Part shown: positions 16,113-18,728 of the stretch, piece after piece
Numbering within the stretch: the stretch's first letter is position 1
Layout of the letters: the number at the start of each line of letters is the position of its first letter
NCBI GenBank assembly: GCA_944382835.1
Contig: CALWNP010000015.1
Location: forward strand, 1-54,675
Length of the DNA: 54,675 nt
Direction: 5' to 3'
Origin: an uncultured Gemmiger sp.
GTDB lineage: Bacteria > Bacillota > Clostridia > Oscillospirales > Ruminococcaceae
Made by a program: the position numbers and the translations under genes
Notes under the pieces: generated by a model
Told to the model about the DNA's origin: nothing
Seen by the model: only the letters and a program-made list of their open reading frames with translations
Database searches by the model: none

Positions 16113-16163
16113 AAAAGACAAAACAGCCCCGCACCGGAATCTTGCCGGCAGCGGGGCTGTCCT
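16113..16163 (-). terminator. Terminator of the ACP operon (possibly two-way)
   Basis: ACAGCCCCGC (16123-16132) pairs with GCGGGGCTGT (16151-16160), with inner CCGG/CCGG pairing. Read on the minus strand it is followed by TTTTGTCTTTTG. The plus-strand tail is poor in T, but it could still slow transcription arriving from tmcAL. Confidence 0.75.
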
Positions 16164-17164
16164 TATGTCAGATTGGGGCGATCCTGGTCGCCGTCGGCCT
16201 TGAACATCACAAAATGTTCCGGCTTGTTGGTGAAGTAGTAGTACTCGGTGTTTTCCCGCAGCGGCGGGGTCAGATAGTTGGGGATCACGTTGCCGTCGTC
16301 GGGCAGCCGCTCGCAGAAGCCGGCGGCCCGCCAGATCTCGGGTGGGATGCCTACATTGTAACAGTCGATGTACTCGGCACCGGTCTGCTGGAGCAGCCGG
16401 TCGAGGGAACTGCCCAGCAGGGGCAGGGCCTCGTCGGGGCCGATGAAGTCCACCAGCCGCAGCACCGGCACACAGCCGGTCTCAGCGGCCGAGACGGTGC
16501 GGGTGACCAGGTAGCAGGCCAGCTTGCCCTCCAGCCGGGCCATCCAGAAATCATAATGGAAGTGGGGATAATGGAAGTACCGGCGGCGCAGATACCACAG
16601 GTCCTTGCGGGGGGTGTGGACCGAGGGGGGCATCCCCAACGGGATCAGGTCGGCGGCGCTCTCCACCCGGATCAGGGCCAGGCCGCCCTTCACCGGCAGG
16701 ATGATGGGGTGCACCGGCTTGGCCAGCTGGTAGCCGCCGGGACCGGCGGGGGCCAGCCGGTAATAGTGGTGCATCCGGTCGGCCTCCCAGCCCAGAAAGC
16801 GGTAGAAGGTGCAGGTGTTGGGCCGGATGTTGTTGCAGGCCAGCACCTCGGCATGGACCAGGTCGGGCAGGGCGTTCATCAGCTCCAGCCCCACCCCGTT
16901 GTGGCCCTTGGCGGCTACCCAGACCGAGACCCAGACATCCGGCCGGGCTTCGGTGTTGGCCAGGATGTAGCCGGCGGCGCTGAGGTAGTTGCCGTCCTGC
17001 TCCGCCACCGCGAACTGGGGCACCCCGCCCCGGCCGGCATAGTAGTGGCGGTAGAACTCCGGGCGGTTGATCAGCGGCAGCCGCATATCAAAATGGCTGT
17101 TGATGAAGTCGATGATCTGCCGGTCCTCCCCGAGACGGGCCAGCCGAAAGACAATCTCAGACAA
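16163..17164 (-). CDS. GNAT-like acyltransferase of the orphan ACP operon
   Basis: A 333-residue protein that looks like two fused GNAT-like halves. The N-terminal half has FRLARLGEDRQIIDFINSHF and then QFAVAEQDGNYLSAAGYILA and SVWVAAKGHNGVGLELMNAL, the core strands and the acyl-CoA or acyl-ACP binding turn. The C-terminal half has DFWMARLEGKLACYLVTRTV and the LRLVDFIGPDEAL strand. No signal peptide or membrane segment is seen. The start is a TTG at 17162-17164 overlapping the SDR stop by 8 bases, so translation is coupled. As last gene of an ACP/dehydratase/reductase operon it may pass an acyl group to an unknown acceptor; that is inference. Confidence 0.7.
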   Translation of the reverse strand: MSEIVFRLARLGEDRQIIDFINSHFDMRLPLINRPEFYRHYYAGRGGVPQFAVAEQDGNYLSAAGYILANTEARPDVWVSVWVAAKGHNGVGLELMNALPDLVHAEVLACNNIRPNTCTFYRFLGWEADRMHHYYRLAPAGPGGYQLAKPVHPIILPVKGGLALIRVESAADLIPLGMPPSVHTPRKDLWYLRRRYFHYPHFHYDFWMARLEGKLACYLVTRTVSAAETGCVPVLRLVDFIGPDEALPLLGSSLDRLLQQTGAEYIDCYNVGIPPEIWRAAGFCERLPDDGNVIPNYLTPPLRENTEYYYFTNKPEHFVMFKADGDQDRPNLT

Positions 17165-17900
17165 TGGCCGAGCCCCCCGTCACAGGCAGAGTAACCCCGG
17201 TGATGAACCGGGCCTCCTCGCTGAGCAGGAAGGCCATGGCGGGCACAACGTCTTCGGGGGTGGCGTTGCGGCCCATGGGGTTGTCGGCGGCGGCCGCCTG
17301 CACAATCAGGTCGGGGGTGTCTTTCAGAAAGTGGGTCTCCATCATGCTGGGGGCAACGCAGTTCACTGTCACCCCGAACCGGGCGTACTCCACCGCCAGG
17401 CTCTTGACCAGGCCGCCCAGGGCGCTCTTGGCCATCACATAGGCGGCGGTGTTCTTGGGCGGGCAGCCGATGGTGTAGCTGGTCTGGATGAAGAGCAGCC
17501 GCCCGAACCGGGCCTTGGTCATGGCGGGCAGAATCGCCTTGCAGAGCTTGACGGCGCTGTGGACCTGGATCTCCATGTCGGCGGCAAAGCGGACCTCGTC
17601 AAAGGCCTTGAACTTGGTGTTGATCACCGGCAAGGCCGGCAGATGGACAAAGTGAGTGGGGGCGGGGCAGGTCTGGGTCAGCAGCTGGCAGAAGGTGTCC
17701 ACCTTGTAGGGATCGGACAGATCCACGTCAAAGGGGCGCACCATGCCGGGAAATTCCTGGCACAGGGAAGCCAGCTTGTCCAGATCGCCGCAGCCCTGGG
17801 CCAGCACCAGGGTGCCTTCGGGGGCGCCGGTGAGAAGGCGGCGGATCAGCGTCCGGCCCACATCGCTGGTGGCGCCGGTGATCAGATAGATGTTTGACAT
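17157..17900 (-). CDS. SDR-family oxidoreductase (FabG-like)
   Basis: A 247-residue classical short-chain dehydrogenase/reductase, probably NADPH-dependent. It shows the dinucleotide-binding TGATSDVG (8-15), Ser141 in the FIQTSYTIG strand, and the catalytic Tyr154-xxx-Lys158 (YVMAK), followed by VNCVAPSMMETHF and FITGVTLPVTGG, the usual SDR ending. In FabG enzymes this fold reduces 3-oxoacyl-ACP, and an ACP gene in the same operon makes that chemistry likely here. One oddity is HLPAL where most SDRs have NNAG near residue 87. It lies 33 bases after the dehydratase gene and overlaps the GNAT gene. Confidence 0.85.
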   Translation of the reverse strand: MSNIYLITGATSDVGRTLIRRLLTGAPEGTLVLAQGCGDLDKLASLCQEFPGMVRPFDVDLSDPYKVDTFCQLLTQTCPAPTHFVHLPALPVINTKFKAFDEVRFAADMEIQVHSAVKLCKAILPAMTKARFGRLLFIQTSYTIGCPPKNTAAYVMAKSALGGLVKSLAVEYARFGVTVNCVAPSMMETHFLKDTPDLIVQAAAADNPMGRNATPEDVVPAMAFLLSEEARFITGVTLPVTGGSAIV

Positions 17901-17933
17901 GACAATCTCCTTTTTTACAAACCCCGGCGGGCG

Positions 17934-18350
17934 TCAGCGGGCCAGCCCGGCCTTGATGACGCCGCGGGTTACCTTTTTTCCGTCCTGGTTGGTGATGACC
18001 GCCTTGATCTCCACCTCGGAGAATGCCTCGCTGGCATGGGTCACGGTGCCGGAAACGGTCAGGGTGTCCCCGATGAAGATGGGGCGGGCAAACTTGCACT
18101 CCACACTGTGGAGCAGGCAGTGCTCCCCGGGCAGGTAGACCCCTGCCAGGGTGGAGAAGAAGCTGGCCCCCAGCATCCCGTAGACCACCCGGCCGGGATA
18201 GCCCCGGCCCTTGGCATAGTCCTCATCCATGTGGATGGGGGAGCAGTCCCCGGTCAGGGCGGCGAAGGCGTCCATCATCTGGGGGGTGATGGTGACGGTG
18301 AACTGTTCGGTCAGCCCAGGGGTCATCTGGGCGAAGGTGTAGTGGTTCAT
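17934..18350 (-). CDS. MaoC-like hot-dog dehydratase/hydratase
   Basis: A 138-residue single hot-dog domain of the (R)-specific enoyl hydratase/MaoC type, which adds or removes water at a 3-hydroxyacyl thioester. The active-site signature is present: LTGDCSPIHMDEDYAKG with Asp35 and His40, then VVYGML on the central helix and a C-terminal strand set (ARPIFIGDTLTVSGTV). The start is the ATG at 18350 after GAAAGGACACCGCC; 37 upstream in-frame codons overlap the ACP end and look non-coding. The family normally handles CoA or ACP substrates, and here the ACP is encoded next to it. Confidence 0.85.
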   Translation of the reverse strand: MNHYTFAQMTPGLTEQFTVTITPQMMDAFAALTGDCSPIHMDEDYAKGRGYPGRVVYGMLGASFFSTLAGVYLPGEHCLLHSVECKFARPIFIGDTLTVSGTVTHASEAFSEVEIKAVITNQDGKKVTRGVIKAGLAR

Positions 18351-18420
18351 GGCGGTGTCCTTTCGGTGAGGGAAAAGCAAAACGGGCGGGGGCATCCCCC
18401 CGCCCCAGATGCGGCGAAAC

Positions 18421-18660
18421 TCAGACCATGCGGCCCACCAGATCCAGCAGGTCGCCCACATTTTTCAGGTTGCGGACATCAGCCAGCTTGAACTTGATGG
18501 AAAACTTCTTCTCGATGGCGGTCAGCAGATTGATCTGCTCCAGGCTGTCCCAGTCCTCGATGTCATCGGCGCAGGTGTCGCGGGTGATCACCAGGGTGTC
18601 GTCGTCAAAATTGTCGCGGAAAATTTCCTGGACCGCTTCCAGAATGGCCTGTTCAGTCAT
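18421..18660 (-). CDS. Acyl carrier protein
   Basis: A 79-residue acidic four-helix carrier. Ser39 in the EDWDSLEQINLL motif is the expected phosphopantetheine attachment site, followed by the usual helix II and the FKLADVRNLKNVGDLLDLV ending. It is first in a four-gene operon with a dehydratase, a reductase and a GNAT protein. The sequence differs from a housekeeping fatty acid synthase AcpP (D-S-L-E-Q rather than D-S-L-D-x-V), and no fab genes are nearby, so I read it as a dedicated carrier. AAAGGAGTAGACAAT precedes the ATG. Confidence 0.9.
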   Translation of the reverse strand: MTEQAILEAVQEIFRDNFDDDTLVITRDTCADDIEDWDSLEQINLLTAIEKKFSIKFKLADVRNLKNVGDLLDLVGRMV

Positions 18661-18685
18661 ATTGTCTACTCCTTTATATAGAAGG

Positions 18686-18699
18686 TATGGTTTGCCATA
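18686..18699. promoter_or_regulatory. Palindrome at the ACP operon start, possible operator
   Basis: TATGG-TTTG-CCATA lies just downstream of the -10, where the transcript begins. A further CCATA half-site occurs at 18705-18709, inside the spacer. Either a repressor site or a small 5' hairpin. No known operator was recognised. Confidence 0.35.
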
Positions 18700-18728
18700 A
18701 GTGTACCATAGGAAACCCCCATTGTCAA
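18700..18728 (-). promoter_or_regulatory. Promoter of the ACP-MaoC-SDR-GNAT operon
   Basis: Minus strand TTGACA (plus 18723-18728), 17 bases, TACACT (plus 18700-18705), preceded by TGG (extended -10). A near-consensus promoter, implying substantial expression. Confidence 0.8.

Follow-up and report, generated by a model that had tools for sequence, protein, structure and literature searches.

An acyl carrier protein operon of Gemmiger that may make a non-acetyl group for a legionaminic-acid-like sugar, with a candidate FkbH loader encoded elsewhere in the genome

Introduction

Glycerate-utilisation sets of the tetronate and methoxymalonyl polyketide pathways contain an FkbH-domain protein and a stand-alone acyl carrier protein (ACP), which in the cited passages are proposed to give glyceryl-ACP from 1,3-bisphosphoglycerate (PMC7489565). 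In the CMP-legionaminic acid pathway (LegB, LegC, LegH, LegG, LegI and LegF; GDP-linked in Campylobacter jejuni), LegH acylates the product of LegC (PMC6137143, PMC9298399) and is by description an acetyltransferase (PMC3438082, PMC6137143, PMC9298399). Compared by description, the C. jejuni flagellar glycosylation locus Cj1298-Cj1302 offers a parallel, with LegH as Cj1298 (PMC3438082), an FkbH-domain gene as Cj1302 (PMC7099621) and di-O-methyl-glyceric acid on pseudaminic acid (PMC3068675); the cited passages describe no gene order with MaoC and a short-chain dehydrogenase/reductase (SDR). Here we analyse a 54,675-nucleotide contig of an uncultured Gemmiger sp. (GenBank assembly GCA_944382835.1, contig CALWNP010000015.1; the whole stretch of DNA is called the window), which carries an operon for an ACP, a MaoC-type enzyme, an SDR and a GNAT-like protein. 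From gene neighbourhood, co-occurrence and profile fit we consider it probable that this operon supplies a legionaminic-acid-like nonulosonic acid with its N-acyl group, which it both makes and transfers, and that its loader is an FkbH protein encoded elsewhere in the genome.

The set resembles the glycerate-utilisation sets in pairing an FkbH-domain protein with a stand-alone ACP. It differs from them in that the operon encodes MaoC and SDR followed by a GNAT-like transferase but neither a FabH-like enzyme nor a methyltransferase nor a polyketide synthase, and in that the loader gene is unlinked in the window genome. With the legionaminic acid pathway, the window genome shares LegC, NeuB/LegI and NeuC/LegG; in place of the acetyl donor of LegH as described in the sources cited above, the most likely donor here is a C3 acyl group bound to an ACP. 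The operon works like a glycerate-loading set joined to the legionaminic pathway. We found no description of the five-gene operon reported below, nor of an FkbH-SGNH-MBOAT locus, in searches of open-licence papers.

Results

FkbH is the first gene of the operon in most relatives outside the window's clade

The original prediction described the four genes as an orphan set in which nothing loads the ACP and guessed that it might make a short hydroxyacyl or enoyl group that decorates a sugar, peptide or lipid. In the order of transcription and in window positions the genes are:

18421-18660, minus strand: ACP, 79 amino acids, PF00550 (PP-binding) 23.1 bits (cut-off 20.8), attachment Ser39
17934-18350, minus strand: MaoC-type hot-dog dehydratase/hydratase, 138 amino acids from the ATG at 18350, PF01575 60.7 bits, Asp35/His40
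17157-17900, minus strand: FabG-like SDR reductase, 247 amino acids, PF13561 (adh_short_C2) 118.5 bits, Ser141/Tyr154/Lys158
16163-17164, minus strand: GNAT-like acyltransferase with a proposed LegH role, 333 amino acids, TTG start, C-terminus FKADGDQDRPN

The positions of the open reading frames (ORFs) confirmed the predicted coordinates, strand and overlap of eight bases between the SDR and GNAT-like genes (17157-17164), and, as predicted, none of the four encodes a ketosynthase or ligase. The active-site residues named in the prediction are conserved: among the relatives and the window, with both locus sets described below used and some genomes therefore counted twice, Ser39 of the ACP was kept in 104/104 sequences, Asp35 and His40 of MaoC in 105/105 and 103/105, and Ser141 of the SDR in 105/108, with Tyr154 and Lys158 in 108/108.

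The order ACP-MaoC-SDR-GNAT recurs across many genera, which excludes chance. Gene order was judged in 80 loci, the best 80 of 179 motif-matched relatives, ten of which lay too near a contig edge (loci, genomes and contigs bear the letters L, G and C); a separate set of 40 loci, partly from the same genomes, was excluded from these counts. The window's clade comprises 26 of the 80 loci (L149-L170, L172, L174, L180 and L218); this list was drawn after the FkbH pattern was known, and the tree of GNAT-like proteins supports a single clade among the rows kept (support 100/99). Outside the clade, FkbH-ACP-MaoC-SDR-GNAT was found in this order with FkbH adjoining the ACP in 37 of the 45 judgeable loci; L178 has all five genes with overlapping ORF calls, and seven loci differ. 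The fifth gene encodes a protein of about 590 amino acids, the scanned copy of which (L050) contains an FkbH domain (TIGR01686, 269 bits). Under the name Gemmiger, which NCBI applies to some members of neighbouring genera as well, seven loci outside the window's clade also carry five genes (L173, L179, L183, L184, L186, L187 and L217). Within the clade, 23 of the 25 judgeable loci have the four genes and no FkbH, with at least 2 kb upstream of the ACP available; the exceptions are L160, which has all five, and L174, with four genes and odd ORF calls. We reject the orphan reading because FkbH is the first operon gene in most loci outside the window's clade.

The DNA in the gaps of L040, L042 and L044 was considered and looks unrelated (a MATE-like transporter, short ORFs and a lipoprotein-like ORF). 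The five genes also occur in order, unannotated, on a 267-kb circular Subdoligranulum variabile record deposited as a plasmid (OY725877.1; L333 5578-9987), which was typed as mobilizable and was the only match of the plasmid search.

The window ACP fits the profile of FkbH partners

The strongest single result of the analysis is the profile fit of the window ACP, because the ACPs on which the profile was trained come from other genomes. We hand-picked 20 FkbH loci from the 50 genomes that have FkbH and lack the GNAT-like gene; a small ORF lies directly behind FkbH in 16 of them. The profile was made from 14 ACPs picked solely by this position, with L131 and L133 left out; picking by similarity to the window and L043 ACPs, which is circular, gave the same 14 and the same scores. 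Against this profile the window ACP scored 98.9 bits, and the remaining PF00550 proteins found in its genome, three in number, scored 25.2, 5.2 and 3.6. Window-type ACPs of G020 and of three sister genomes reached 98.3-101.9 bits, with the other listed ACPs at 25.0 or below. By this measure the window ACP is of the predicted FkbH-partner type.

The window ACP is thus one of four PF00550 matches in its genome rather than the sole ACP, and a different one lies just upstream of accD- and accA-like genes (these labels, like PtmE, Gfo, LegF and SGNH below, come from reading translations unless a family score is given). This supports the earlier claim that the operon is not the housekeeping fab set. 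The ACP, MaoC and SDR do resemble parts of fatty-acid synthesis by family, but that they are ordinary accessory genes of that pathway is highly improbable in view of the separate acc-linked ACP, the association with FkbH and NeuB and the overlap of the GNAT-like and SDR genes; on the acc-linked ACP and the profile fit of the window ACP we rejected this role. Loading by a ligase was likewise rejected, none having been seen in the operons, where no ligase profile search was made.

An ACP-like ORF of the genome, on C25 (L078 7199-7627), is above the PF00550 cut-off and by eye has Ala in place of the phosphopantetheine Ser (GADAEDL); it is possibly an unchargeable carrier.

An FkbH gene mostly accompanies the GNAT-like gene and is present in all 35 Gemmiger genomes

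The GNAT-like protein is present in 46 of the 247 genomes of the window's family. Tallied by hand against this list, FkbH was found in 45/46 genomes with the GNAT-like gene vs 50/201 without it (Fisher p 1.8e-21) and, by genus, in 25/26 vs 31/100 (p 6e-10). Since relatedness inflates these p values and those for NeuB below, linkage is given more weight.

FkbH is present in 35/35 Gemmiger genomes, in 34 of them above the family cut-off (in G256 as two pieces below it; G253 has one extra weak match), so that, together with its place in the operon of most relatives, the claim that nothing loads the ACP is not supported. The four Gemmiger genomes examined have FkbH at a separate locus (L076, L091-L093) in the order FkbH-SGNH-MBOAT, at which neither BLAST nor PF00550 found an ACP. 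In the window genome FkbH is on C31, a contig that ends just past MBOAT, and the ACP is on C15, so the two are unlinked; in the single-contig genome G220 the operon and FkbH loci are about 0.6 Mb apart. The C31 protein scores 266.9 bits with TIGR01686 (cut-off 146.65) and contains LDLDNTLWGG, which we take to be an intact HAD motif.

Linkage and co-occurrence point to a legionaminic acid precursor as the likely acceptor

By the same hand tally, NeuB, the nonulosonic acid synthase, was found in 44/46 genomes with the GNAT-like gene vs 25/201 without it (p 2.7e-28) and, by genus, in 24/26 vs 19/100 (p 4e-12). In L189 and L195 the transferase gene stands at the head of a Leg cluster, followed on the same strand by genes for an N-acetyl sugar amidotransferase, LegB, LegC, a PtmE-like protein, NeuB and NeuC (in L195 LegB, LegC and WbuX score 493, 429 and 346 bits, all above cut-offs). 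In L041 it follows LegB, both being on the other strand from the adjoining Leg operon, and in L131 FkbH-ACP-SDR start about 30 bases after the cytidylyltransferase-like gene that ends a LegC-NeuB-NeuC cluster. Members of the set thus occur in or beside legionaminic acid clusters at these four loci. Together with the five-gene operon usual in other genera, this makes the orphan reading fail in part by the condition set in the prediction, that the genes always belong to a larger known cluster. The linkage and the co-occurrence do agree with the guess of a sugar decorated by a short acyl group.

The window genome has its own cluster, on C7, with LegC (432.5 bits, cut-off 420), NeuB (459.4, cut-off 399.65) and NeuC (379.3, cut-off 235.9) together in a row of LegC, PtmE-like, NeuB, NeuC, two Gfo-like and cytidylyltransferase-like genes; no LegH was seen among the ORFs of at least 130 amino acids read around it. 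Gene neighbourhood and co-occurrence make a legionaminic acid precursor the most likely acceptor. The earlier interpretation is partly supported by these data: the operon appears to be a sugar-decorating acyl set, but one with a loader and a likely acceptor.

The GNAT-like family has relocated members in legionaminic acid clusters

The 333-residue GNAT-like protein had no Pfam or NCBIfam match, which is a weak point of its earlier label as a double GNAT, and a PDB search with a profile of 43 sequences returned only RibT (E 0.19) and an integron cassette protein (E 0.54), nothing usable. In alignments of the family the FKADGDQDRPN C-terminus is strongly conserved. In the tree of 79 GNAT-like proteins L189 and L195 are nested within operon proteins, in a clade of 29 rows that includes the window protein (support 96/91), which identifies these two as relocated orthologues; the L041 protein, a more distant homologue, forms a long branch whose position is unsure. 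The neighbourhood of another distant homologue, L048, has a LuxE-like ORF and thiamine-diphosphate-enzyme-like ORFs (by reading).

Proposed route from glycolysis to a decorated sugar

In the proposed mechanism, the FkbH of C31 would take 1,3-bisphosphoglycerate and load a glyceryl group onto the window ACP (step 1), a step predicted from the FkbH literature and the profile fit of the ACP. MaoC would then dehydrate glyceryl-ACP to the enol of pyruvoyl-ACP (step 2), and the SDR would reduce pyruvoyl-ACP to lactoyl-ACP (step 3). The GNAT-like protein, in the place of LegH, would transfer the acyl group to the 4-amino group of the nucleotide-linked 4-amino-4,6-dideoxy-GlcNAc delivered by LegC (step 4), after which LegG, LegI and LegF would convert the product into an activated legionaminic acid whose N7 carries a non-acetyl group. 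The bryostatin polyketide synthase loading module reportedly joins FkbH with a ketoreductase and a dehydratase that are proposed to dehydrate and reduce glyceryl-ACP to D-lactate; in the operon the proteins are discrete and there is no polyketide synthase. A search of open-licence papers gave no confirmation of the bryostatin parallel.

A different source of the acyl group was also considered, in which fatty-acid synthesis charges the ACP with acetoacetyl or crotonyl, MaoC and SDR make 3-hydroxybutyryl-ACP for transfer to the sugar and FkbH is uninvolved in Gemmiger. 3-Hydroxybutyryl groups are known on nonulosonic acids, and the SDR is like FabG and the MaoC protein like enoyl hydratases. ACP, acyl-protein synthetase and FabG-like genes are, in the cited passages, part of enterobacterial flagellin glycosylation islands (PMC4875605). 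We nevertheless find this source improbable: no ketosynthase gene fits between the genes of the contiguous operons and none was seen, the flanks having had no ketosynthase profile search; moreover, the ACP is of the FkbH-partner type and FkbH is linked in most other genera.

Signals around the operon

Three further features were read from the window sequence:

18700-18728, minus strand: sigma-70-like promoter 5' of the ACP gene, TTGACA-17-TACACT, with TG before the -10 element
18384-18405, minus strand: terminator-like hairpin between ACP and MaoC, from a sequence scan
16124-16159, minus strand: intrinsic-terminator-like hairpin 3' of the GNAT-like gene, with a T run, read by eye; the sequence scan matches part of it (16139-16127)

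The near-consensus promoter of the original prediction is present, with 10/12 matches, and is the sole such site within the 3.35 kb scanned; with 0.6 such sites (standard deviation 0.8) expected in shuffled sequences vs one observed, it is by itself not beyond chance. A hairpin with a T run in the gap between ACP and MaoC was found in 14 of the 29 window-clade loci (the clade list extended for this count by L052, L055 and L056) and in 17 of 67 others, with differing hairpin sequences and, as both locus sets were used, some genomes entering twice; it may be a leaky terminator favouring the ACP over the downstream enzymes. An Rfam search of the window gave no match.

Discussion

What the sequences show directly is which genes are present, how these are linked in relatives and that the window ACP fits FkbH partners; together this argues for an ACP-dependent acylation of a legionaminic-acid-like sugar. 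Several observations weigh against it. Three separate contigs of the window genome carry the operon, the FkbH gene and the Leg genes, which makes it an inference that they act together there. No LegB was found in the 19.9 kb examined of the C7 region, NCBIfam assigns the NeuB and NeuC of C7 to Neu5Ac-pathway equivalogs, and the cytidylyltransferase-like and PtmE-like genes of C7 are below all family cut-offs. All 15 genomes tested have NeuD/PglD-family matches, none above cut-off, and one of these proteins could act as LegH; in G220 the match lies beside MBOAT- and SGNH-like genes (by reading), but a second acetyltransferase is possible. Among the genomes that encode the GNAT-like protein, G150 is without FkbH, and G095 and G123 (82-87% complete) are without NeuB. 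No small ORF follows FkbH in 4 of the 20 FkbH loci picked from genomes that lack the GNAT-like gene. L047 and L048, distant homologues of the GNAT-like protein (28-30% identity), have NeuB-like and AMP-ligase-like genes nearby (by reading) but no FkbH, and these neighbours suggest other acyl groups for similar transferases.

Steps 2 and 3 are predicted from enzyme class only, and with them the acyl group (lactoyl, or possibly glyceroyl), which is the least certain part of the proposal. MaoC and SDR are not universal in loci with FkbH and the GNAT-like gene: L043 and L210 have FkbH-ACP-GNAT with MaoC and SDR not nearby, and in L207 FkbH-GNAT stands with the other three genes not found; L050 has FkbH-ACP-SDR-GNAT without MaoC. 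As these sets lack MaoC, SDR or both, glyceroyl transfer may occur there. More generally, the pathway could be as proposed and the group transferred be glyceroyl or another glycerate derivative, with MaoC and SDR, for example, oxidising it or making the opposite C2 isomer. The transferase can probably use unmodified glyceryl, to judge by L043, L210 and L050; the di-O-methyl-glyceric acid of C. jejuni pseudaminic acid is a fitting precedent, and methoxymalonyl pathways, in the cited passages, oxidise glyceryl-ACP with no dehydration (PMC7489565). Against this stands the near invariance of the MaoC and SDR catalytic residues, which favours real dehydration and reduction in the full operons, and we regard the transfer of glyceroyl or another glycerate derivative by this altered route as rather unlikely.

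A further point against the proposal is the placement of the Gemmiger FkbH. In a tree of 64 FkbH proteins the four Gemmiger copies form one clade (support 100/100) that lies on the MBOAT-associated side (19 rows, 99/95) and not on the operon side (41 rows, 98/92), which includes all 36 operon copies as well as L094, an FkbH that neighbours MBOAT. The operon copy of FkbH was probably lost and a different FkbH kept, and this protein may serve MBOAT rather than the window operon. Of the 20 FkbH loci picked from genomes that lack the GNAT-like gene, 10 have MBOAT about 4 kb or less from FkbH-ACP on the same strand (L132, L137-L142, L144, L146 and L148; L129, where MBOAT is about 5 kb off, was excluded). 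A protein of 463-491 amino acids is encoded between MBOAT and FkbH in L137, L140, L144 and L148.

Such FkbH-MBOAT loci look like Dlt-like surface acylation with FkbH replacing DltA. On C31 the neighbours of FkbH are a DltB-like MBOAT and an SGNH-like protein, and the logic of loader, carrier and membrane acyltransferase is shared with the Dlt system; unlike in that system, FkbH stands in the place of DltA, the MBOAT scores 134 bits to DltB, for which the cut-off is 375, the SGNH-like protein is matched weakly at 22 bits (cut-off 32.9) and no ACP was found at the locus. The Gemmiger FkbH might serve only SGNH-MBOAT, acylating the surface in a Dlt-like way and using the window ACP as its carrier, while MaoC, SDR and the GNAT-like protein act on something different. 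The order FkbH-SGNH-MBOAT in the four genomes examined, the placement in the tree, the MBOAT-linked loci and the DltB score all speak for it. Yet ACP, MaoC, SDR and the GNAT-like gene have remained together in the 23 of 25 window-clade loci without FkbH, such MaoC and SDR proteins would need an acyl-carrier substrate, and the association with NeuB would be left unexplained; we judge this division of labour unlikely.

A combined arrangement is possible, though we hold it with some doubt: one FkbH and one ACP in Gemmiger, with the FkbH of the Dlt-like locus replacing the lost operon copy, might feed two acylations, one placing lactoyl on the cytoplasmic legionaminic acid precursor through MaoC, SDR and the GNAT-like protein and the other placing glyceroyl or the same acyl group on a surface polymer through SGNH-MBOAT. 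The window genome also has, on C18 (L079 5368-9873), a ligase-ACP-MBOAT-SGNH set that resembles dltA, C, B and D; its ligase, ACP and MBOAT are below the NCBIfam Dlt cut-offs and its SGNH protein is without a match, and the set may acylate with something other than D-alanine.

The nonulosonic acids of bacteria are similar to the sialic acid of their hosts and important in host contact. If the proposed lactoyl pathway is true, a group of Oscillospiraceae, namely Gemmiger, Fournierella, Anaerofilum, Ruthenibacterium and Pygmaiobacter, many of them from gut samples, would tag a legionaminic-type sugar with a C3 acyl group from 1,3-bisphosphoglycerate and not by mere acetylation. This would predict a specific glycan mass and give a function to a transferase family without a Pfam or NCBIfam match, and it would mean that a distant relative, with its gene at another place in the genome, has seemingly taken over from the first enzyme of an operon. 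If the two acylations indeed share one loader and one carrier, the surface of common gut bacteria would have a glycolysis-derived, CoA-independent acyl supply.

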